From positions 1 through 64,000 of the forward strand of contig JANXXU010000006.1 of NCBI GenBank assembly GCA_025350465.1: a stretch of 64,000 bases of DNA, written 5' to 3'. The notes below the pieces were generated by a model that made no database searches, had not been told where the DNA came from, and saw only the letters and a list, made by a program, of their open reading frames with translations. Made by a program: the position numbers and the translations under genes. Positions within the stretch are counted from its first letter, which is position 1; the number at the start of each line of letters is the position of its first letter. Shown piece after piece: positions 3,743 through 17,154 of the stretch. This stretch comes from Alphaproteobacteria bacterium (GTDB taxonomy: Bacteria; Pseudomonadota; Alphaproteobacteria; Micropepsales; Micropepsaceae).

Positions 3743-5551
3743 CTATTTGGGTCTCGTACCCGATGACGGCTCGAGGCCGACGGAGCGCCCGGGAAAACCC
3801 GCCGCGTCGAAATAGCGGGCGCCATCGGCCGCTTGATATCTGAGCACCGTCGAAAGGCCGCCGGCGGGTTTGGAACGAAGCTCCTTGCCTTCAAACGCGA
3901 CAGTCTCCGGGCCGTTCGCCAACGCTTCGTGAATGACGCGGCCGACGAGCTTTCCTTGCGGCGGGATAGTGAGCCGCAACAGATGCGCGATGGTTGCGCC
4001 AATGTCGGCGTTGCTTGTCGGCGCTTTGTCGCGATACCCGGCTTTGAAATCGGGACCGAGCGCCGCTTGAAAATTCGACGTGTCGGCGCGGCTGAAGCTG
4101 CCGTGCATGCCCTGTCCTTGCACGAGGCCCGTGTCGGCGACCTCGGCCGTGCACATCGCCGGGCGCTCGCAGCCCGTGGCGAAGGAACGGAAGTTCACGA
4201 CCAGCGACGGTCGCGGGGTCGCCGCTGAGCCGACGAGATTGATGGCGCTCATCGGCAACGTGCCGGCGATGTCGCCAAGCGCGTCGTTGACGAAAATGCC
4301 GCTCGTATAGTCCTGCTTCAGGAGTGCCGCCGCAATTCGACGCGCAAGCTCCTTAGCGTTCGCCGTCGGGAGATAGATGAGGTCCGCGCCGCCGTTCGCC
4401 GCGACGACGATCTCAGGTTTGTCCTTGTCGGGGCCGATGAGGCCATTGCCGCGTTTGGTCAGCGCACCGGTCTTGTAATCGATCGGCGTTTGAAAGCGGT
4501 CCGGATCGAACAATGGCAGCCCCAGTGCTTCGGCCAGGTCCACGGCCAGAAAACCCGCGGGCAAAGTGTTGGGTGAAACGTCGGCATGGGCTCGTTGCGT
4601 TGACGGACTCGTCTTGCTTTCCTTTGAGATCGTCGAGAAGCCGTGATCCGCACTCACGATGATGTTCGTGGTGGCGGTTAAACCTTGCTCGTCGAGTGCC
4701 GCGCGTAGAGCAGCGAGATTGGCATCGGCATTCCGAATGGCCTGCAGGCTCGTCGGACCGTTGATGCCCGGCGTCAACGTGCCAATGCTGTCGGTCTGCC
4801 CATGCTGCGTGCCATCGGGATCGCGCGACCAAAACACGATGAAGAACGGCTTTCCGGCCTTCTTGAAGCGCGGCAGGAGCACGCGGGCCACGACCTCTGC
4901 GAAGTATTTTTGTTGATCGACATTTGCGGTCGTGCCCGATCGCGGCGGCGTGGTCGTCGCCAGCCCGGCCGCTTTGATGGCGTCCTTGATCTGTTGGTCG
5001 AGCGGCACGCCGCCGTTGCCCGTGTCGTCGTCGACGATGATCGTGCCTGTATGCTGTGCGCGGACGTTTTGGATCAGCGTCGGGCCGAGTTTTCCGACTG
5101 CCGCCGTCGAGTAGCCGGCGGCCGCGGCCGCCGCCATCACGCTTTCTTCGTTGAGATAATTGCCGCCGAAATGATCGTCGACCTCGTCGATCACCGAATC
5201 GTTTTCCAGAAACGGCGTCTCGCTTGCCGCGGCCGCCTTCACCCGAAACGGCAGATAAAGTGCGTTGCCGAAATCGCCGGTGTCGCCAAGGTAATGGCCG
5301 GTTGCCATCGCCGACGCGTTCGGCGTGGTCACTGTCGGAAAAAGCGAGTGGCTGTTCGAGAAATCGACGCCGCGGCGTTTGATCTCGGCGAACGTGGGTG
5401 CCGTTGCGTCGTCGACAGAGCCCGAGCGCAAGCCGTCGGGGACGAACAGGATCACGTTATGCGGCGTCAGGTCGTCGGCGACCGCCGCCGAGATGGAAAA
5501 TCCTTGGCAAAGAACAAGCGCAAATCCTGCGCGCCGAAATATTGAAGACAT
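3743..5551 (-). CDS. Secreted alkaline phosphatase-superfamily phosphodiesterase/nucleotide pyrophosphatase
   Basis: The 602-residue product begins with a signal peptide ending near SAAVADD, so it acts in the periplasm or outside. The metal and nucleophile motifs of the type I phosphodiesterase/nucleotide pyrophosphatase branch are present: ILFVPDGLR (Asp), FPTVTTPNASAMATGHY (Thr nucleophile), DPDGTQHGQTDS (Asp, His), SADHGFS (Asp-His) and a later MHGSFSRAD (His). It would hydrolyse a phosphomono- or diester; the substrate cannot be read. It is the last gene of a minus-strand run with exbD, tonB, a TonB-dependent receptor and exbB, which suggests it prepares a phosphorylated ligand for uptake. 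The start at 5551 is chosen because it opens the signal peptide; an upstream ATG at 5584 would add a charged stretch. Confidence 0.88.
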   Translation of the reverse strand: MSSIFRRAGFALVLCQGFSISAAVADDLTPHNVILFVPDGLRSGSVDDATAPTFAEIKRRGVDFSNSHSLFPTVTTPNASAMATGHYLGDTGDFGNALYLPFRVKAAAASETPFLENDSVIDEVDDHFGGNYLNEESVMAAAAAAGYSTAAVGKLGPTLIQNVRAQHTGTIIVDDDTGNGGVPLDQQIKDAIKAAGLATTTPPRSGTTANVDQQKYFAEVVARVLLPRFKKAGKPFFIVFWSRDPDGTQHGQTDSIGTLTPGINGPTSLQAIRNADANLAALRAALDEQGLTATTNIIVSADHGFSTISKESKTSPSTQRAHADVSPNTLPAGFLAVDLAEALGLPLFDPDRFQTPIDYKTGALTKRGNGLIGPDKDKPEIVVAANGGADLIYLPTANAKELARRIAAALLKQDYTSGIFVNDALGDIAGTLPMSAINLVGSAATPRPSLVVNFRSFATGCERPAMCTAEVADTGLVQGQGMHGSFSRADTSNFQAALGPDFKAGYRDKAPTSNADIGATIAHLLRLTIPPQGKLVGRVIHEALANGPETVAFEGKELRSKPAGGLSTVLRYQAADGARYFDAAGFPGRSVGLEPSSGTRPK

Positions 5552-5693
5552 TTGCCTTTGCGTCCTTTCGCTGGGTGCGCCCATACCAGCACCGCTTCGT
5601 GACGTCCGTATTGCAGAATTCCGCGCCGCCGGATGGCGAGGAGGGCAACCCCGACACCCGGCGGCGCGGCTGCGCCCAGCGATGGCAGGCCGA

Positions 5694-6458
5694 TCAAGCG
5701 GTCGGGTACGTCCCGCCGATCAACCCTATGCGCAGCAGAATGATTTTCAGAAGGTCCGAAATACGTCCGATGCGCTCCTGAAAGACGTTGAAGAACAAGA
5801 GGCCGTAAAGCGCCGTCGCGATGCCGAGCGCCGTGGCAAAGAGCGCAAGACCGATGCCCTTCGACACGGCGGCGGGATCGGAAATGCCGGCCTGCGCCAG
5901 CGCGGTGAACGTATCGATGATGCCGAGGATCGTGCCAAGCAGGCCGAGGAGCGGCGCCGCCGTCACCATCGTGTCCAAGATCCAAAGGCGCGCGCTCAGT
6001 CTCCCCTTTGCTTCAATGAACGCGGAGTCCGTTACATCTTCGAGCCTGCTGCGGCTCGTCAACTGCGCGCGATGATCCAGGATTTGCCGCAACATCGCGA
6101 CCGCCGCCGTACTGCCGCGTTGCGCCGATTTAGGAATGTCGTCGAGCGACTTCGCCTGATCCAAGAGCCGCGCGACTCGCTTGGCTTGCGACAACGTGGC
6201 CGCGAAATAGAGCAGGCGCTCGATGATGATGAACGTGCCCAGGATCAAGAGCGCGTAGAGCACGAAGAAGACCGCTTGATGCATCCACTCGTAGTTCGAG
6301 GCGATCGAATTGATCCAATCGCTGATCGCTTGCGCAGCTTGATGGATCGGGTCGCTTGCCTCGGCAGTGTGCGGCGGCAGGGCGGGCGGCACCGGAGGCG
6401 GCGGCCCGCTGGGCGGGTTTGCCGGCACATTGTCGGCAATCTGTGCGAACGTGCTCAC
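5694..6458 (-). CDS. exbB: TonB-system proton channel subunit (MotA/TolQ/ExbB family)
   Basis: The 254-residue inner-membrane protein has a proline-rich N-terminal segment, then three membrane helices near residues 62-84, 163-185 and 205-227. The signature region LDTMVTAAPLLGLLGTILG is typical of ExbB/TolQ. With ExbD it forms the proton channel that energises TonB. It is separated from exbD and tonB by the receptor gene, an unusual order, but all lie on one strand with short gaps. The neighbouring receptor argues for ExbB over TolQ. The 142 bases to the phosphatase gene hold no further gene. Confidence 0.9.
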   Translation of the reverse strand: MSTFAQIADNVPANPPSGPPPPVPPALPPHTAEASDPIHQAAQAISDWINSIASNYEWMHQAVFFVLYALLILGTFIIIERLLYFAATLSQAKRVARLLDQAKSLDDIPKSAQRGSTAAVAMLRQILDHRAQLTSRSRLEDVTDSAFIEAKGRLSARLWILDTMVTAAPLLGLLGTILGIIDTFTALAQAGISDPAAVSKGIGLALFATALGIATALYGLLFFNVFQERIGRISDLLKIILLRIGLIGGTYPTA

Positions 6459-6501
6459 TGCAGTCCTCCCGCGTCGAAATCGTTGGTTGGTCTGAACGGA
6501 T

Positions 6502-6527
6502 GGGGCGCGACCTGTCTGCCGCGCCCC
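6502..6527 (-). other. Intercistronic GC-rich hairpin between receptor and exbB genes
   Basis: GGGGCGCG (6502-6509) and CGCGCCCC (6520-6527) form a perfect 8-bp stem with a ten-base loop in the 83-base gap between the receptor gene and exbB. No T-run follows in the direction of transcription, so a full terminator is unlikely. It could stabilise the 3' end of the receptor message or lower readthrough into exbB. Confidence 0.5.
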
Positions 6528-6541
6528 TGAGCTGGATGGTC

Positions 6542-9022
6542 CTAATTCAAGTCAACGCTCAGCTTCGCCGCGACGTAGACGGGCGATCCGACAAAATAGA
6601 ACGGCGTGCCGCTGGCGGAAGCGCAGTTCGTAAAGTCCGGCGACGAGGCGCTGCAGTTTAGGCCTGACCCGACCGGCGCAATCTTTCCCGAGTTGAACTG
6701 ACCGGACTCCTGAGAAAACAAATAATGTTCATCAAACAGATTGTTGACGTTGAGCTGTAGCGTCATGTTCTTGAGGAACGAGATTTCCGGGAAATGGTAC
6801 CCGGCGACGAGATCGACGGTCGTGTACGCATCATAGGACTCGTCGTTCGTCAGGCTTGAAAACTGCTTGCTGCGCCACTTCGGCGTGACGCCGAAGAAGA
6901 AGCCGTCGACCGCGTAACCAATGGATGCGGCAGCCATGAATTCAGGCGAGTCGACCATCTGCATCCCCTTGGTCGGGATAATGCGCGCGACTGTCGGTCC
7001 AACCGCCGAGCAGGTCGCGTTGGTGCAGAGCTTTACACCGAGAGCAAGATCATCCTGCAGCGACGTATGCAGATAGCTGCCGGAGGTATAGAACGTGAGG
7101 CCGTGCCAGGGTGTCGTTCCGAGTTCGACCTCGACACCTGATGACTGAACGCCGCCGATATTTTGCGTGCGGCTTGTCAGCAAATTCGGATCGGTGATCG
7201 TGAAGAGCCGGTTGGAGAAATTGTCAACGAACCCCGTGACCGACGCCAGGACGAACTTGTCCTGATAGCGATAGCCGACTTCGTAGTTCCAGGCCGTTTC
7301 GGCCACGACGTTCGAGCCCTGACCGGGGTCGGTGAGAACGAAGTTCGGCGGAGCCTTGAAGGTCTTGGCCACATCTGCAAATACCTGATTTTCAGGTGAG
7401 ATTTGATAGGATGCCGCAGCCGCCGGCAAGAACGACGAATATTCTCTAGTCACCTCAACGCGAGGCAACGTTACGTGGTTCAAGACGGTGCAATTTCCAA
7501 CGCAATCGGAGATCGCATTGTTGAAGTCGATGAACGTGATATCGCGGTGCTCGGTCGGGTTTCGAAACCCGACGTTGACTTTCAATGCATCCGACAAGAA
7601 TTGGCCCGTTAGATTGGCAAACTCTTCGTAGCCCGTCGAAATCGTGTACTGGTCGCGACCCTCTAGCAACACGGACCCATCGCCCGGCAATTGCACCGAC
7701 AAGAGATCGTTGTGCGACCATTGGTCAAACGGATTTCCGTTGGCGTCCAACGTCTCGAACGGCTGCCTCTGCCGATGGCGCGCGCGCTCGTACCAGCCGC
7801 CGAACGCGATCCTCCACATGTCGTCGATCGTGTAGTCGCTCTTCACCGTCACGCCCGGACGATAGGTCTCCGTCGTCGAATTGCGATAATAGGTGAGCGT
7901 GTTGGTCGTTCCGCCGAGATAGTCCGTGATCCCCAAAAACAAGCACTTGCCGGCTGAGTTCTTCTTCGGACACGCGTCGGTGACGGTCGCGCCTGTCGAA
8001 CCGCCGCCGTTGCCGTACCAAAAGTACGGCTCGATGTTGAGGCGCCACGAACTTGTCAACTGCATGTCGGCCTTGACGTTCGAGATCATGTTCTCGAACG
8101 GATTGACGCGTAGTCCGAAATATCCCGAGTAAAGGTTCAAACCCGTCGCCGGATTCGTATTTGCCGCCGCACCCTCGTTGAAGTTCACCGGAATACCGCC
8201 GGGAACCGGACCGAAGACCGGAAGAAAGTCTGTGCTCACTCCCGCGGCGGCGATGTTTGCTTTCGAAAGCGTATAATAGAAATTGTTTATCGCCCGGTTC
8301 CATGCCGCGCCAGCCGAATACGACGACCCGCCGGCGGTGTTGTAGACGAATTTGGCATCGATATTTTGTTTGTCGGCCGAGCCCGGTCCCTTGAACTTGT
8401 CGGCGTCGGCTTGAGAAAACGAGCCGTACGCCTTGAAGCCGTCATAGAGGCCGGTGTCGAAGCGGAAGAATTCCTTCGACGAATCCAATTGCCCGCCGAC
8501 TTGGACATAGCGAAAGCGCTGCTGATCGACCGGGTTCGAACTGACGATGCCGATGTTGCCGCCCGTCGCGCCCACATGCGGCGCGTCGAAGTCGGCCGAG
8601 CCTTGCGTGACGAAGACCTGCTCGAGGTTTTCCGAATCGTAATATTCCTGAGGAAACACCTCGAAGTTGCCGGAGTCGTTGACCGGCGCGCCGTCGATCG
8701 TGAAGCCGATCTGCTGGCTGTTGAAGCCGCGCATCGTAATGGCGCCGCCGAAGAGGCCCGTTCCGTCGGTCGACGCTGAGTTAACGCCGGGCAGCTTGTC
8801 GATATATTGATAGGGATTGTCCGTGCTCGGCGAATTTTCGATGCCTTCACGCGTCACCGTCGAGCGCCCCTTCGGTGCGTCTTCCGGAATGATGTAACCG
8901 GACCCCGTGGCGGTACCTGCTCCGGTAACCGTCACCTTGCCGATATCGCCTTTGTCTTCCGCGTGCGCGGACGTCAAAGCAAGCACGCTGACGCCCAGCG
9001 CCAACATCGATGATCTTCTCAC
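6542..9022 (-). CDS. TonB-dependent outer-membrane receptor
   Basis: The 826-residue product has a signal peptide, then a plug domain with YQYIDKLPGVNS, GGAITMRGFNSQQIGFTIDG and EQVFVTQGSADFDAPHVG, and a long beta-barrel with repeated aromatic strands. It would import a large or scarce ligand across the outer membrane, powered by the TonB/ExbB/ExbD set encoded around it. I start at the GTG at 9022 because GAGGGG lies six bases upstream. The ATG at 9061 has no spaced ribosome site and would add 13 residues. The ligand cannot be deduced from sequence. The phosphatase at the end of the run suggests a phosphorylated compound or a phosphate-poor setting. The C-terminus ends in Asn instead of the usual Phe. 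Confidence 0.92.
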   Translation of the reverse strand: MRRSSMLALGVSVLALTSAHAEDKGDIGKVTVTGAGTATGSGYIIPEDAPKGRSTVTREGIENSPSTDNPYQYIDKLPGVNSASTDGTGLFGGAITMRGFNSQQIGFTIDGAPVNDSGNFEVFPQEYYDSENLEQVFVTQGSADFDAPHVGATGGNIGIVSSNPVDQQRFRYVQVGGQLDSSKEFFRFDTGLYDGFKAYGSFSQADADKFKGPGSADKQNIDAKFVYNTAGGSSYSAGAAWNRAINNFYYTLSKANIAAAGVSTDFLPVFGPVPGGIPVNFNEGAAANTNPATGLNLYSGYFGLRVNPFENMISNVKADMQLTSSWRLNIEPYFWYGNGGGSTGATVTDACPKKNSAGKCLFLGITDYLGGTTNTLTYYRNSTTETYRPGVTVKSDYTIDDMWRIAFGGWYERARHRQRQPFETLDANGNPFDQWSHNDLLSVQLPGDGSVLLEGRDQYTISTGYEEFANLTGQFLSDALKVNVGFRNPTEHRDITFIDFNNAISDCVGNCTVLNHVTLPRVEVTREYSSFLPAAAASYQISPENQVFADVAKTFKAPPNFVLTDPGQGSNVVAETAWNYEVGYRYQDKFVLASVTGFVDNFSNRLFTITDPNLLTSRTQNIGGVQSSGVEVELGTTPWHGLTFYTSGSYLHTSLQDDLALGVKLCTNATCSAVGPTVARIIPTKGMQMVDSPEFMAAASIGYAVDGFFFGVTPKWRSKQFSSLTNDESYDAYTTVDLVAGYHFPEISFLKNMTLQLNVNNLFDEHYLFSQESGQFNSGKIAPVGSGLNCSASSPDFTNCASASGTPFYFVGSPVYVAAKLSVDLN

Positions 9023-9112
9023 GTCAATCCCCTCTTTTTGTCTGCCTAAGCGAAAGTCCATTCACCCCATTCGCGCCGTGACGAAAAACGCGCGGCCGGC
9101 ATTGGCCGGTCG

Positions 9113-9763
9113 TCATGACACCTTGAATTCGAGATGCACCGTGATCGTGGTCGCGGAATCTCCGGGCCACGCCTCGTTCGGAAACGGCGCATAGCGCCCG
9201 CGTTTGACCGTTGCGATCGCTGCACGGTCGAGAATGCTTCCGGCTGATTGCTCGACCTTCACATCCAAGAGCGTTCCGTCTCTCGAGACCCGGAAACTGA
9301 TGACGACTGTGCCTTGCGGTTGTTGAATGCGCGCTTCCTTCTCTGTCGGATAGCGCTTGATCGACTCCAGATGCTGACGAACGGCGGCCCTGTAGGCATC
9401 TTCCAAATCGTGCGACGGGCGCGCGGGCGGTGTCGCCGGAGGCCCGGGCGGCAGCGGCGATGGCGGCGCGTCCGGCGTCGGCGGTAGGTTCGACGGTGGC
9501 GCCGGTTGCGGCGTCCGCTCGCGGTGCTTGACCTGCTTGTCGATGAATTGATCCTTCGTCACCACGGGTGGCGGCGGCGGTTCGACGGGCGCCGGCGGCG
9601 CGGGTGCGGCTGCCAGCAGCGAAATCTGCATATCCGGTGCGGGCGGCGAGGGCGGGTCGCTCGGTCTCACCCAGACGATCGCCGCGATCGCCATCAGACC
9701 GAGCAGCGTTCCGGTCAACGTTCGCGCGATCCAAGTGCGCCAGCGATAGAGGAGCTCCAACAC
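9113..9763 (-). CDS. tonB: Energy transducer TonB
   Basis: The 216-residue product has the three-part TonB layout. There is one N-terminal membrane helix (about 14-31), a long proline-rich spacer (about 36-115, with PVEPPPPPVV) that spans the periplasm, and a C-terminal TonB domain with RYPTEKEARIQQPQGTVVIS and an FRVSRDGTLLDVKVEQSAG stretch. It couples the inner-membrane proton channel to the receptor encoded next to it. The gene starts 16 bases after exbD ends, so the two are co-transcribed. The dedicated copy implies specialisation for this receptor. Confidence 0.93.
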   Translation of the reverse strand: MLELLYRWRTWIARTLTGTLLGLMAIAAIVWVRPSDPPSPPAPDMQISLLAAAPAPPAPVEPPPPPVVTKDQFIDKQVKHRERTPQPAPPSNLPPTPDAPPSPLPPGPPATPPARPSHDLEDAYRAAVRQHLESIKRYPTEKEARIQQPQGTVVISFRVSRDGTLLDVKVEQSAGSILDRAAIATVKRGRYAPFPNEAWPGDSATTITVHLEFKVS

Positions 9764-9779
9764 GCATCGAACTCCCCGC

Positions 9780-10193
9780 CTATGGCTTCTTCGGATGGGT
9801 GGCGATGTTGACCGCGCCGTAGCCGTTGGCCTTCAGCACGTCGAAAACGTCGATGAGCTGCTGCAAAGTCACGCCCTCATCGCCGTTGATGGTGATTTGC
9901 AATTCCTGGCCGGGCACGCGGCGCTGGGCCAGCAACGCCGCCAGGATCGACAGTTCGACCGGCGCGCCGTCGAGCTCAAGCCGGCCGTCCTTGGCCAGCG
10001 TGATCACTACATTCTTGCGTTGCTCGAACTTTTGCGTTTCCGCGGACACCGGCAATTGCGTACGCAGACCCATCGCCGGGATGACGTTCACGCTGATCAA
10101 AACAAAGAAGACCAGCAGAAACATCATCACATCGATCATAGGAATGACTTCGATGCGCGCTTTCGCGCGCGCCGGTTCTTCCCATCGGCGCAT
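9780..10193 (-). CDS. exbD: TonB-system biopolymer transport protein ExbD
   Basis: The 137-residue product has the ExbD/TolR signature: a short cytoplasmic N-terminus, then IEVIPMIDVMMFLLVFFVL, where Asp21 is the expected proton-carrying residue in the single membrane helix. A periplasmic domain follows with VVITLAKDGRLELDG and LQITINGDEGVTLQQLIDV. The ATG at 10193 is chosen because GGGGGA lies seven bases upstream; an in-frame TTG at 10208 is less likely. It is the first gene of the TonB/receptor/ExbB/phosphatase run, so its promoter should lie in 10194-10576. Confidence 0.93.
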   Translation of the reverse strand: MRRWEEPARAKARIEVIPMIDVMMFLLVFFVLISVNVIPAMGLRTQLPVSAETQKFEQRKNVVITLAKDGRLELDGAPVELSILAALLAQRRVPGQELQITINGDEGVTLQQLIDVFDVLKANGYGAVNIATHPKKP

Positions 10194-10576
10194 AAGAAAG
10201 TCCCCCAAGAAAGCGCGTGCGACGCAAAACGCCGCCCGCGCTCGTCACCCCACATGACGAGCATCGCGTCCACAATCAGCCACGCGTGCATGACGGACTC
10301 GCGAACGAATCGATGACAAATTTATTTTCGTGCTGGAGCCGGACACGAATGTGTTTTCGATGTGACTCGAAATTTTGCGCCCGAGAAATTTTCCGGCGGA
10401 AAGTCTCGCGCGGGAAGAATTATGACAACGACACGCGATCAAAAAATTATCGCGCGTCGAGTGTGACATCGATCTTCATTTGACTCGAAGTGCATCCATC
10501 ACCGACCTTCGCGCTCAAGATTTTTTGGGGAAGCGCACGCGCGAATGCCGCACGGCGCATCGTGATGGGGGACTTC
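10194..10576. promoter_or_regulatory. Divergent promoter region between exbD and the OmpA-like gene
   Basis: This 383-base gene-free region feeds exbD to the left and the OmpA-like gene to the right. It is AT-richer than its surroundings. It contains the palindrome TTTCCGGCGGAAA (10390-10402), the inverted repeat CGCGAT (10434-10439) with ATCGCG (10449-10454), and two copies of TGACTCGAA about 120 bases apart. I could not match any confidently to a Fur, Irr or PhoB box. The divergent arrangement would allow shared control. Confidence 0.5.
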
Positions 10577-12030: not shown

Positions 12031-13761
12031 ATGCAATTGGCCGCGCTGCAAAAGGCAGCTGCGCAAGCCATCGTGAACATATTCGAAACTGGGTCGATCC
12101 GCGGCAACTATGGCGACGTTACGCTGCTGCGCGGTGACTCCGGACAGCTGACCTATGGCCGTTCGCAGACCACGCTGGCCAGCGGCAATCTCTATCTCCT
12201 GATCAAGGATTATAGTGCGCGCTCCGACGTCGCCTATGCCGCGCAGTGCGTCCCCTATCTGCCGGGCCTCGAAGCGTGCGACACGGCGCTCAACACCAAC
12301 ATGGAATTTCGCGGCCTGCTGAAGGACGCCGGCGACGATCCCGTGATGCACGAGGTGCAGGATGCGTTTTTCGATCGCGTCTATTGGGATCCGGCGATCC
12401 GTTCGGCCGACGCGCTCGGCGTGCAGACCGCGCTCGGCGCCGCCATCGTTTACGACAGCACGGTTCATGGTTCGTGGGCACGCATGCGCGAACGCACGCG
12501 GCAAAAAGTCGGCGAGCTCAGCGCCATCGGCGAAAAGGCCTGGATGGCGCATTATATCGACACGCGCTACGACTGGCTTTCGACAAACCCGAACGCGCTG
12601 CTTCACAAGACCGTCTATCGCATGGATGCGCTGGCCGCGCTCATCCGCACCGGCAATTGGAATCTGAAACTGCCGTTCGCGGTTCGCGGCTTCACGATCA
12701 CGGCCGACGCGCTCGGCGAGAATACGGCGGTGCGGGTTCCGGCAGAGAGCGCGCCGCGCCGCATGCTGCGTTACAAATCGCCGCCGCAGAACGGACCGGA
12801 CGTCGTCTGGCTGCAGGAGCGTCTCGCCCGCGCCGGGATTCGCGTGACCGCGTCCGGTGTGTTCGATGCGGTAACCGATGCCGCCGTGCGTGCCTTCCAA
12901 GAGAACCACGACCTGAAAGTGGACGGCATCGTCGGCCCGGTCACCAGATCGGCGCTGGAAGATATTTCGGTGACCTCGCCGACGAAATCCGCCGTGACCG
13001 ACGAGCCTATGCCGGCGGTCGCGAACGCCGAAGCGCGGGCAGTGAAGCCCAGCGCGCCACCCGCCAGAGATGGCGCGCCGGCAAGACGCCCTTCGCCGGC
13101 TCCCGAACCGGAGCCCGCTCCCGCGCCCAGACCCGCGCGATCTTCACCGCCGCCCGCGCCGCCGTCTGATGCGTCGCAAGGCGACGATCCTGTCGGCGAC
13201 ATCAAGCACCACGTCACCGCCGAGGTGAAAGCCGGCGTCGAGACCGTGCGCAAGAGTCTTCGCGACGAACATGAAAAACTGACGCAGCGTCTCAATAGCA
13301 GCATTCAAAACGAAGTGTCCGACGTACTCGCGGGTGTGAAGGACCATCTGAAGACGCGCGGCCAAGCCGTCCTCAAAGATGTCGCCGGCGGGCGGCCAAT
13401 CATTCCGGCCGTGCTTAGCGGCGTGACGCTCGCTTTGACCGAAGCCAGAGATTTCTTCTCCTGGAAAGAGGCGGCGACGAACACGCCAACGACTGGGGCC
13501 GCGAACACAGCGACATCGGCGACGGTTCCAGTGACTGCGCCAACGGCAGTGCAAACCACGATCGACCAGACGACCGCAAACCCGCCCAGCAACGATACGG
13601 TCGCGCAAATCTACACCTACCTGCACAACCTCGCGGCGTCGGTGCCGAACGAATGGGTTTTCCGTTTGCGCGTCGGTGCCTTCGCGCTGATTGCCTATGC
13701 GATCTTCCGCCTCTGGCGCCGGCGCGCCGAGGCTGCAAAAGCCAAGAAGGGAGCGCCGTGA
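12031..13761 (+). CDS. GH46 chitosanase-like protein with peptidoglycan-binding domain and C-terminal membrane anchor
   Basis: The 576-residue product starts with about 240 residues resembling glycoside hydrolase family 46. NIFETGS (Glu19) and LLRGDSGQLTYGRSQT (Asp36) match the two acidic catalytic positions of chitosanases, and further on are FFDRVYWDPAIRSA and KTVYRMDALAALI. A PG_binding_1 domain follows (about 255-315, NGPDVVWLQERLARAGI, VDGIVGPVTRSALE). Next come a proline/alanine linker, a helical region, a Thr-rich stretch and one C-terminal membrane helix (about 540-560) with a basic tail. There is no N-terminal signal peptide, so export and topology are unclear. It probably cleaves a beta-1,4 glucosamine-type or cell-wall glycan. 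Its stop overlaps the start of the patatin gene by one base. Confidence 0.75.
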   Translation: MQLAALQKAAAQAIVNIFETGSIRGNYGDVTLLRGDSGQLTYGRSQTTLASGNLYLLIKDYSARSDVAYAAQCVPYLPGLEACDTALNTNMEFRGLLKDAGDDPVMHEVQDAFFDRVYWDPAIRSADALGVQTALGAAIVYDSTVHGSWARMRERTRQKVGELSAIGEKAWMAHYIDTRYDWLSTNPNALLHKTVYRMDALAALIRTGNWNLKLPFAVRGFTITADALGENTAVRVPAESAPRRMLRYKSPPQNGPDVVWLQERLARAGIRVTASGVFDAVTDAAVRAFQENHDLKVDGIVGPVTRSALEDISVTSPTKSAVTDEPMPAVANAEARAVKPSAPPARDGAPARRPSPAPEPEPAPAPRPARSSPPPAPPSDASQGDDPVGDIKHHVTAEVKAGVETVRKSLRDEHEKLTQRLNSSIQNEVSDVLAGVKDHLKTRGQAVLKDVAGGRPIIPAVLSGVTLALTEARDFFSWKEAATNTPTTGAANTATSATVPVTAPTAVQTTIDQTTANPPSNDTVAQIYTYLHNLAASVPNEWVFRLRVGAFALIAYAIFRLWRRRAEAAKAKKGAP

Positions 13762-16700
13762 TGAGAGAAGATGAAGCGCTGCCGGCCGACGGCGCCGCGC
13801 CTTCGGAGGAATCGCATCCGGTTCATCACAGTTGGTCGCAAGTCGCCGCCCGATATCGCAGCCAGCATGCGCGCTCCGGCCTTGATGGATCCGACGGGAG
13901 TGTCGGCGACCGCACCCGGCTCGCTGCGCCGCGCACCATTGGCGCCGCCTCGCACATTTTCATCTTGGCGCGCCTCCAGCTGATCGTCACCGCCGTTCTT
14001 GGCGCGACGCTGCTTGATTTCGCCATCGAGGGTTCGATGCGCGAAGCGTTGCGCTATTCGGTCGTCGATGCGCCGCAACAATTTCCCGCCATCATCATTG
14101 GCCTTCTTCTAGCCTGTGCCGCGCTGCGCTTTTCCTGCGAGGCGATGATCGAGCTTGTTTCCCCCGACCTCTTCGACGCGCAGGGCAATATCGGCCGCCT
14201 CGCGCATTTGCTGCCCAGATTGCTGGCGATATTCGTGGGCTTTGCCGCCGGCTTTCCGCTTTTGAAATTGGCGGCCGACCAAGACTTGGAAGCGCTCGGG
14301 ACGCAGGACAATCGCATTTTCGCGTTGGCGTTCGGCCTGATCTTTGTCGCCGTCGGCCTCTTGGTGGGCATCGTCGGCAAGGGCCCGCATCTGCGCGCGC
14401 GCGGGATCGTCACGCAGCAATCCTCGCCGATCTTGCGTTGGACGCTCGCGCTCCTTCCGCTTGCCGCGGTGATCGCCTTGGCCGGCACGATCTGGGGGAT
14501 TTTTCCGAGCGACGAGCCCTCGCATTATCTTGGAATTCCGCGTGGCGCGCTCGAACGCTACATGGGCGTCGATCTCGCGCCGGCGCTGATGCAGGCGGCG
14601 ATCGAAGCGTTGGCGATCTTCTTGACGGCAATCGTTGCGCGCCTCGCCTTCAACGTCATCGTCTTCTTGGCGGCGCCCCATGCAATGGGATCGCATGGCA
14701 TCGCCGGCGTGATCGCAGCTTGGATACCGCGATTGGCGGCGGTAGCTGTCGGGTTCGTTCTGACGATTCGGGTGATCGGTCTCTACACGGCACCTGGCGC
14801 GGTTCCTCTTTCCGCGAATGCCGGCTATTGGCTGTTGGGCATTGCCCTCGGCTATTCCGTGATCGCGCTCCTTGCCGCCACGATCGATGGATCGTTTTCG
14901 GTCGTGACCGACTCTTCGACTTTCTTCCAGCGCACCGGCAGCCGCTGGCTGATGGGCGCCGAGCGCATGGCCGCGTTGGACCCAAGCTGGCGGCGCTTTT
15001 TCGCACTGTTCCTCGTGGGGGCAATTGCCGTCTTCCTTGTTTTCTTTGACGTGTCGCAGGTTAACCGCGCGCAGGCGATCGGGCCGATCGCCATCATCCT
15101 CTTGTGGGGCTTCGCGGCGACCGCGCTTTTCTTTCCGCTCGCTTACATGTCGCACGCGACAAGGATGCCGCTGTTGCTGATCTTGCTGATCGCCGGCATG
15201 TCCTTTGCCGGGTTCGACATCAACGACAATCATCAACTTCGCGGTGCCAATTCGGAGGCGCCATCGCTGGAAGCTGCCTTGGCCGCGAGCGCTCAAGCCA
15301 AACCCACCTACTATCGCGAAAACGTCGACATCGGCGATTGGCTCTCGAGTCGGCGCGACTGGCAACAATACGAGCACTACCCGATCTTCCTGGTCGCGAC
15401 CGAAGGCGGCGGTATTCGCGCCGCTTACTTCACCGCGTCCGTGCTGGCGGCGCTGCAAGAAAAATGCCCGGCCTTCGCTCAGCACGTTCTGGCGATCAGC
15501 AGCGTCTCGGGCGGCAGTGTTGGCGCCGCCGTCTTTGCCGGCGAGGCCGCCGAGCAGGCCTCGAACGTCGACTTCGTCGGTTGCAATCTGGGCGCCATCG
15601 AGCCCGGTGTTATCGTCGAGCGCGCCCGCAAGGTGCTGGCGACCGATTTGTTGTCGCCGTTGCTCGGCGCGACGCTCTTTCCAGACGCATTGCAACGCAT
15701 CTTGCCGCTGCCCATCGATCGCTTCGATCGGGCACGCGCTCTCGAATTCGCGCTTGAAGATTCGTGGCGCAAAAACACCCCGCATTGCCGAACCTGCGAC
15801 CCAGAGAGAATGGCCACAAGGGTCGAGGCGCTCTATCCGCGCCAGCAGATTCGCGGACCGGTACCCCATCTCTTTCTCAACACGACGGAAGCGGGAACGG
15901 GTCTGAGCAAGCCCTTTGCGACCTGGGACATCGGCGACCTGGCGCTGCAGGACCGCGTCGTCTCCAAACGCGAAGCGCGAGCCCTCCCGGTGCCGAGGCT
16001 TGTGCCGCTGCAGGACCGCATGGGCACCGACGATGTTCCGCTGAGCGCAGCCGCCATGGTCAGTGCGCGGTTTCCCTATCTGACGCCGGCGGCGCGCATC
16101 GGCGACGTCGGACATTATGTCGACGGCGGTTATTTCGAGAATTCGGGAACCTGGCTTGTCGGCGGCATTGCGCAAAATCTGATCGGCCAGCGTCTGAATT
16201 TCCGCAGCGACGACAAGGCGCTAGAGCGCGCGGTGCACAATTCCGTCATCGTTGCCGTCGTTATTCGCTCCACGCCCTGCAATCCGTGCGGCGACCAAGG
16301 AGAGACCCGCGCGACCAGGGATCTGGACGCCAGGTGGAACGAGATGCTGTCGCCGGTACGGGCGCTCATCTACGCCCGTGACAAGCGCGCGGAATATTCG
16401 ATCAACGATCTCGGCGCGGTGACCTCGCTCATTCAGCGTCTGACGTCGCACGGCGCACGAACCGGAACGCACGGAACCGAAGCGCAGGCGCCGTCCCCGG
16501 CGAACGAGCCGCCGCCAAATTCGAGCGAATGCGCCAACACGATCTGCGCCGTGACCGTCACGTTTCGCAACAAGTCGACGGCGGAAGTGCCTCTCAGTTG
16601 GGTGCTCTCCAGCCGCGCGCGAAACGCCATGGATCAGGCCGTCGATCAAATCTTGGGCGAAAATCTGCAAACGCCGATGCAGCCCAGCAGCAAAGAGGTA

Positions 16701-16802
16701 GAGGACGTCAATCGGCTGGAAGGCTCCTACCGCCGCATCATGTGTCTATTGCAAAACGACCCGACGGCGCTCGGCTGCGCGCCGGCCAAGCTCGCGGATT
16801 GA
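13761..16802 (+). CDS. Large membrane protein with patatin-like phospholipase domain
   Basis: The 1013-residue product begins with a soluble tail, then carries about ten hydrophobic segments (roughly residues 60-500). A patatin-type lipase domain follows: FLVATEGGGIRAAYFTASV gives the oxyanion hole, ISSVSGGSVGA the serine elbow, and GHYVDGGYFENSGT the catalytic Asp. A Cys pair near PCNPCGDQ and a proline-rich insert precede a helical C-terminus. It likely cleaves membrane lipids at the inner membrane. The start at 13761 shares a base with the upstream stop codon, so the GH46-like protein and this lipase are made together. Together they could remodel wall and membrane. The combination is not one I recognise as a named system. 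Confidence 0.85.
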   Translation: MREDEALPADGAAPSEESHPVHHSWSQVAARYRSQHARSGLDGSDGSVGDRTRLAAPRTIGAASHIFILARLQLIVTAVLGATLLDFAIEGSMREALRYSVVDAPQQFPAIIIGLLLACAALRFSCEAMIELVSPDLFDAQGNIGRLAHLLPRLLAIFVGFAAGFPLLKLAADQDLEALGTQDNRIFALAFGLIFVAVGLLVGIVGKGPHLRARGIVTQQSSPILRWTLALLPLAAVIALAGTIWGIFPSDEPSHYLGIPRGALERYMGVDLAPALMQAAIEALAIFLTAIVARLAFNVIVFLAAPHAMGSHGIAGVIAAWIPRLAAVAVGFVLTIRVIGLYTAPGAVPLSANAGYWLLGIALGYSVIALLAATIDGSFSVVTDSSTFFQRTGSRWLMGAERMAALDPSWRRFFALFLVGAIAVFLVFFDVSQVNRAQAIGPIAIILLWGFAATALFFPLAYMSHATRMPLLLILLIAGMSFAGFDINDNHQLRGANSEAPSLEAALAASAQAKPTYYRENVDIGDWLSSRRDWQQYEHYPIFLVATEGGGIRAAYFTASVLAALQEKCPAFAQHVLAISSVSGGSVGAAVFAGEAAEQASNVDFVGCNLGAIEPGVIVERARKVLATDLLSPLLGATLFPDALQRILPLPIDRFDRARALEFALEDSWRKNTPHCRTCDPERMATRVEALYPRQQIRGPVPHLFLNTTEAGTGLSKPFATWDIGDLALQDRVVSKREARALPVPRLVPLQDRMGTDDVPLSAAAMVSARFPYLTPAARIGDVGHYVDGGYFENSGTWLVGGIAQNLIGQRLNFRSDDKALERAVHNSVIVAVVIRSTPCNPCGDQGETRATRDLDARWNEMLSPVRALIYARDKRAEYSINDLGAVTSLIQRLTSHGARTGTHGTEAQAPSPANEPPPNSSECANTICAVTVTFRNKSTAEVPLSWVLSSRARNAMDQAVDQILGENLQTPMQPSSKEVEDVNRLEGSYRRIMCLLQNDPTALGCAPAKLAD

Positions 16803-16818: not shown

Positions 16819-17154
16819 TTATTTGTCGGTGAATTGGTAGACGTCGGTCGCGCAAATGTTGACCTTAGGTTTCTCGACCTTGTGTCCGTCGTCGAATGTC
16901 GCGCGCAAATCGTAGGTACAGTCCGGCGTTGTCGCCATTTCCACATCGACAAGCTTCCCGACCCCGAGCGCCGTTTTGCCGAGCATATCGGGTTGCCATT
17001 CCGTCGCCGCCGGCTTCTTCGCCTGCAGTGCGACGATCGCGTAGTGCGTGGGATTGAAAATCTTGATGGTCTTTGCCTCGGCGCCGGAAACGGCAGACGA
17101 CATCGCCAAGCCGAAAAAGATCAAACCGACGCTGAGTGTTGGAATCCGCCGCAT
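16819..17154 (-). CDS. Small secreted protein of unknown function
   Basis: The 111-residue product has an N-terminal signal peptide ending near VSGAEA. A mature part of about 85 residues follows, with KTIKIFNPTHYAIVALQAKK, a mid-protein EWQPDMLGKTALGVGK and two cysteines, in TTPDCTYDLRATFDDGHKV and VNICATDVY. This resembles a family of small periplasmic proteins in Alphaproteobacteria that share the CxYDhxAxFxDG pattern, with no known function. The two cysteines could pair. It is convergent with the patatin gene, 16 bases away. Confidence 0.65.
   Translation of the reverse strand: MRRIPTLSVGLIFFGLAMSSAVSGAEAKTIKIFNPTHYAIVALQAKKPAATEWQPDMLGKTALGVGKLVDVEMATTPDCTYDLRATFDDGHKVEKPKVNICATDVYQFTDK

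Follow-up and report, generated by a model that had tools for sequence, protein, structure and literature searches.

A candidate chromosomal envelope-cutting cassette of Micropepsaceae, with an exchangeable membrane-tailed hydrolase beside a conserved membrane patatin and a small exported protein

Endolysins that lack a signal peptide and carry a C-terminal transmembrane domain (TMD) with a cationic tail lyse cells from inside (PMC7143992, PMC8879335, PMC8943055). M4Lys (BSPM4) lyses E. coli alone, in a Sec-independent manner that requires the TMD (PMC7143992), and in LysAP (AP1) both the C-terminal TMD and cationic residues are required (PMC8879335). The C-terminal part of Enc34 ORF39 forms two helices, of which the first is amphipathic; by what route the enzyme part passes through the membrane is stated as open (PMC8943055). 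A different enzyme family, GH46, uses Glu37, Asp55 and Thr60 as its acid, base and water-positioning residues (PMC2976769).

Here we analyse a three-gene locus of some soil alphaproteobacteria in which a GH46-type enzyme has this signal-less, membrane-tailed layout. The locus lies in a 64,000-nucleotide stretch of Micropepsaceae DNA, the whole of which we call the window, and comprises:

12031..13761, plus strand: gene A, a predicted signal-less GH46-type peptidoglycan hydrolase (Pfam, PDB sequence match, invariant catalytic residues, hydropathy)
13761..16802, plus strand: gene B, a predicted polytopic membrane patatin-like lipase (Pfam, hydropathy, charge, invariant residues)
16819..17154, minus strand: gene C, a 111-aa protein with an N-terminal signal sequence (adjacency, AlphaFold2 model, family survey)

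Base 13761 belongs both to the stop codon TGA of A and to the ATG of B, the one-base overlap reported in an earlier note on this DNA, and C is convergent with B, immediately downstream of it. That note had described a two-gene module; the A-B pair is indeed conserved, and C is a third member that had been missed.

The product of gene A has 576 residues, counted from the ATG at 12031, with the following parts:

aa 14-216: Glyco_hydro_46 (Pfam, E 5.8e-20)
aa 254-309: PG_binding_1 (Pfam, E 2e-17)
about aa 330-390: Pro-rich linker
about aa 451-469: weak hydrophobic or amphipathic segment (hydropathy)
about aa 543-561: C-terminal membrane segment, then a positively charged tail (hydropathy)

The GH46 score is 72.3 bits against a curated Pfam cut-off of 27, and GH46 chitosanases of the PDB match the protein at E 4e-19 in a sequence search. 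Glu19, Asp36 and Thr41 are identical across all aligned A homologues and have the spacing of the GH46 residues Glu37, Asp55 and Thr60. The N-terminus, MQLAALQKAAAQAIVN, is conserved among homologues and presents no signal peptide, so that Pfam, the conserved start and hydropathy agree with the earlier description of A as a signal-less GH46 and peptidoglycan-binding protein with a C-terminal membrane anchor. The Pro-rich linker evolves fast (dN 0.56 vs 0.14 in the enzyme part). The membrane segments have a modest hydropathy (KD 1.25-1.8), and the 15 residues after segment 543-561, as placed by hydropathy only, hold 2-6 K/R. These values are compatible with either topology of A: counting one segment would make the enzyme periplasmic, counting two would make it cytoplasmic.

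Homologues of A residues 1-310 with the same GH46 and PG_binding domains occur in viral contigs at 45, 43 and 36% identity. Downstream of the gene on one of these (L145) lie a 90-aa membrane protein weakly matching a holin (E 0.006), a second membrane protein, a lipoprotein-like ORF, a terminase (E 8e-57) and a head-tail adaptor or portal-type gene (E 8e-156); on a second contig (L146) the gene is near a tape-measure gene. By this kinship the GH46 half of A is of the phage-endolysin type. In a tree of 23 GH46 domains the five long A sequences cluster together (support 81/99), with both cellular and phage relatives around them, and the tree does not settle whether the source of A was phage or cellular. 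Based on the peptidoglycan-binding domain and the phage kin, peptidoglycan is a likelier target of A than chitosan, and the label 'chitosanase-like' given to A in the earlier note is misleading as to substrate.

Relatives of the GH46 half occur in other settings as well. Several alphaproteobacterial genomes encode short signal-less GH46+PG_binding proteins next to their ccm (cytochrome c maturation) genes (L044 9008-9943; L086, L087, L090, L091, L092, L095). Plasmids of rhizobia and Microvirga carry a gene for a longer GH46 protein beside a murein L,D-transpeptidase and/or a DUF3616 gene (L142 6782-9001; L139 6827-8546; L140 6785-8260); at least two of these proteins have a peptidase-M15-like end, weak and below cut-off in one. 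Chitosan degradation was rejected as a function of A on the strength of the peptidoglycan-binding domain, the phage kin, and these rhizobial relatives, one of which combines the weak M15-like end with an L,D-transpeptidase neighbour.

Gene B encodes 1013 residues, arranged as follows:

about aa 66-487: 11 predicted membrane segments (hydropathy)
about aa 540-800: patatin domain (Pfam Patatin, PF01734, E 4e-7)
C-terminal of the patatin domain: Cys-containing region

The earlier note had counted about ten membrane segments in a 1013-residue protein. Length and polytopic character stand, while at the cut-off used four of six homologues have eleven segments and the other two have ten; the hydropathy average over the homologues presents the same eleven peaks. 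The Patatin score of 30.9 bits exceeds the curated cut-off of 27.7, and the elements GGGxR, Ser583 and Asp788 are invariant in nine B homologues (motifs GGGxR, VSGGS and DGG), from which a lipase function is predicted. Catalytic residues, to which the earlier note had drawn attention, are thus conserved among the homologues of both proteins. The loop charges of B favour a cytoplasmic N-terminus, and B is therefore probably oriented N-in/C-out with its patatin domain in the periplasm, a location that six invariant cysteines of the patatin and C-terminal parts (Cys608/840/924/929/995/1006) would fit. An AlphaFold2 model of B built with nine homologues was too poor for use (pLDDT 51), and gave no Foldseek match at E <= 0.001; a PDB sequence search with B likewise returned no useful match. 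The genome of the window also encodes a second membrane patatin of about 842-855 aa (L130 7716-10244, G000:C1), conserved in the genus and with neither an endolysin nor C adjoining it.

The mature C protein is predicted by AlphaFold2 to be a beta-sandwich with two conserved cysteines (79 and 101), its mature-domain blocks mostly at pLDDT 90-97. The best structural matches of the model are the HGSNAT luminal domain and the VHL beta domain (Z about 7-8); a function of C drawn from these matches was rejected, as the similarity is only at the level of a common beta-sandwich. No family was found for C in Pfam, NCBIfam or PHROGs. The C family, recognisable by the motifs W, C-YD, DG and C (for example window 16819-17154, L134 8707-9123 and L135 8798-9331), is present in 38 of 385 alphaproteobacterial genomes, with three copies in the genome of the window. 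Since relatives of C are widespread without B, C may have a general role.

Comparison of loci reveals how firmly these genes are associated. B and C are adjacent in all ten loci found, which come from nine Micropepsaceae genomes and one IMG/VR contig (L150), and in nine of the ten B is adjoined by A or by a second type of protein, D, described below. The nine genomes carry the cassette at six genomic places whose only common genes are A/D, B and C; the adjacency of B and C is therefore not chance. Among 96 Micropepsaceae genomes B was found in nine, and long A in six, all of them among these nine, a co-occurrence whose chance probability would be 9e-8 for independent genomes, an assumption that does not hold here. 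A lies directly upstream of B in six genomes (one cut by a contig end), on the same strand and with gaps of -4 to +76 bases. Within the searched data the A-B pair is confined to one family, Micropepsaceae, a restriction that the earlier note would have taken as refuting a module in the absence of a conserved neighbourhood, but a third gene, C, is conserved with it.

Pairwise dN/dS values of 0.11-0.46 for A, B and C (0.28-0.46 for A, B and C of L039/L084), with 0.11-0.17 for close D-type pairs, indicate that all four genes, D included, are under purifying selection, and thus that A, B and C are real genes. In the window the neighbours of the cassette are ordinary chromosomal genes, and genome G000, that of the window, and G001, of the same genus, share flanking genes, which indicates that the locus was vertically inherited in that genus.

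Some neighbouring genes deserve a record. A gene with a CHAP domain, a common wall-amidase fold, stands just past C in two genomes (L039 6356-6928 in G034; L084 6870-7487 in G114, by homology). On the minus strand of the window, 3743-10208 reads as a cluster of TonB-dependent-receptor-like, TonB-like and ExbD-like proteins; it separates trypsin/LuxR genes from A-B-C, and in G001 the trypsin/LuxR genes directly precede B. No conserved trigger or regulator accompanying the cassette was found among the loci compared.

The hydrolase position is the variable part of the cassette. Three loci, those of G041, G116 and contig L150, lack A and have the divergently transcribed D in its place; PF01374 does not occur in G041, G116 or G001. 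D is unrelated to A in sequence and is nevertheless built from a signal-less N-domain with a conserved N-terminus, a Pro-rich linker and several membrane segments, with a strong C-terminal segment followed by 4-5 K/R (hydropathy only). Pfam, NCBIfam and PHROGs contain no family found for D, and a PDB sequence search with D gave no useful match. Its N-domain shares 34% identity (E 1e-25) with a Bradyrhizobium phage protein named 'peptidoglycan-binding protein', which has a PG_binding_1 domain of its own (E 1.7e-12) and is followed by small membrane ORFs. In G001 a relic of A with a broken frame (L042 8272-8414) lies directly before an intact B, and C is intact as well; a stretch of about 145 bases matches, at 72%, the sequence upstream of A together with the first 90 bases of the gene. 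A was therefore lost there and B and C were kept, so that the pairing of A with B is not obligate and B does something without A. Taken by sequence, these loci suggest that the hydrolase is an exchangeable module beside a fixed B and C. The pairing of wall and lipid cutting at the membrane, as proposed earlier, gains from the adjacency at several unrelated places and from the replacement of one wall-cutter by another of like architecture, and loses its obligate character with G001. A toxin-immunity relation between A and C was considered and rejected, as loci with a replaced or lost A still have C next to B.

We give a probability of roughly 45% to the reading of A-B-C as a chromosomal cassette for lysis or envelope cutting, in which an exchangeable endolysin tethered to the membrane is combined with a conserved membrane lipase and an exported partner. 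The reading of A and D as tethered endolysins, and of B as their lipase partner, rests on the architecture common with known C-terminal-TMD endolysins. A, made without a signal peptide, would insert by its C-terminal segments as such endolysins do, and its GH46 domain would reach the peptidoglycan. B, with its probably periplasmic patatin domain, would cut envelope lipids at the site of A, where the two may come into physical contact, and may open or destabilise the membrane, taking the role of a phage holin. C would act in the periplasm, perhaps as a regulator or substrate carrier of B; that it regulates B is a guess from gene position. The outcome would be a local or complete breach of the envelope, in the form of programmed cell lysis or of an escape of the cell's contents.

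A non-lytic lipid role of the B-C core is a serious rival because B persists without A in one genome. Here B and C would remodel lipids on the periplasmic side, and the tethered hydrolase would open the wall locally, for bulky assembly or turnover, with no lysis. Such envelope maintenance would explain why G001 retains B and C with only a relic of A and why both are constant whichever hydrolase is present, and it suits a C family that is widespread, chromosomal and present in several copies per genome, as well as the ordinary neighbours in the window. Envelope growth, however, usually uses exported hydrolases, whereas those found here are signal-less, membrane-tailed and of phage-endolysin type, and a cassette present in only 9 of 96 family genomes is unlike housekeeping; we hold this rival to be possible and, on balance, doubtful. 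The same phage kinship, together with the patchy occurrence and the one cassette on an IMG/VR contig, could point instead to phage-derived or mobile cargo of integrative elements: a lysis or superinfection function that has been domesticated, or a suicide module directed against phage. A phage-integrase family gene lies near the cassette in G053 (L040 17871-18914, E 4.6e-16) and a weaker match in G114 (L084 13616-15001), and these integrase genes near two cassettes suggest, with the patchy distribution, some mobility. But in the genomes read no phage structural genes adjoin the cassette, the neighbours on L150 look bacterial and that contig may have been wrongly classed as viral, and the shared flanks of G000 and G001 speak for vertical inheritance in that genus. 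In a PADLOC search (2023 library) neither A nor B had a match, nor did nine of ten neighbours, and the remaining neighbour matched regulators only weakly (E about 0.002); with no link to a defence island found either, the defence role floated in the earlier note finds no backing, and we regard the mobile-cargo explanation as a whole as improbable.

Least probable, and in our estimate very much so, is a secretion system of the type 10 (T10SS) kind, in which cutting of the wall would let out a specific cargo and B would act in the holin's stead. In Serratia, Salmonella and Yersinia, endolysins without a signal peptide do work in secretion together with a membrane partner (PMC9527704, PMC10847048), and an exchangeable endolysin module is what changing substrate needs might dictate. 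However, beyond C no conserved cargo gene accompanies the cassette, and C carries a signal sequence of its own, while a holin is absent and B has no resemblance to one.

Returning to the lytic cassette, its most specific form is a machine of two enzymes for breaking the envelope: a polytopic lipase would stand in the place of the holin, and the endolysin would be a plug-in part, exchanged between unrelated phage-type hydrolases while B and C are retained. We consider this form tentative and rather unlikely. If true, it would join C-terminal-TMD endolysins, large membrane patatins and the widespread, as yet unnamed family of small exported proteins to which C belongs, which were not linked before in the literature found. 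The natural exchange of A and D would then be a direct test of which parts of an endolysin are needed for membrane crossing, and also of whether a lipase can do the work of a holin.

Compared with known systems, A and D are closest in layout to M4Lys, Enc34 ORF39 and LysAP: an N-terminal peptidoglycan hydrolase, no signal peptide, and one or more C-terminal segments with a cationic tail. A appears to resemble Enc34 ORF39, with its two helices of which the first is amphipathic, in having a weak segment, then a better one, then the cationic tail. A and D differ from all three in their GH46 plus PG_binding_1 or D domains, in the long Pro-rich linker, in being chromosomal and known here from sequence, and in their patatin lipase partner where a holin might be expected. 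The phage endolysins of L145, L146 and L147 and the signal-less cellular homologues by ccm genes have the same two domains, at 36-51% identity over A 1-310, but are without linker, membrane tail or an adjoining B or C. GH46 chitosanases, among them CsnN174 and that of Bacillus MH-K1, share with A the GH46 domain and the conserved acid, base and threonine; they are secreted enzymes of chitosan, whereas A is signal-less, has a peptidoglycan-binding domain and membrane tail, and is nearer to phage and cytosolic kin.

B resembles other membrane patatins, namely those of a Nostoc plasmid (WP_104902218.1) and an R. etli plasmid (WP_186007917.1) and the 855-aa paralogue in the genome of the window, in having an N-terminal membrane region, an NDNHxLR-resembling motif and then the patatin domain, with 28-31% identity over part of B; neither an endolysin nor C was found beside any of these three. 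With type 10 secretion systems and holin-endolysin cassettes, A-B would share a signal-less endolysin working with a membrane protein. No holin gene was found beside A, where only B (11 segments and patatin) and C adjoin, and the partner in A-B-C is a polytopic lipase. Searches of the open-access literature, which excludes most subscription journals, found nothing on the parts of the cassette together. Each part is of a known kind, and what appears undescribed is their combination and the exchange of endolysins beside a fixed lipase and exported protein.
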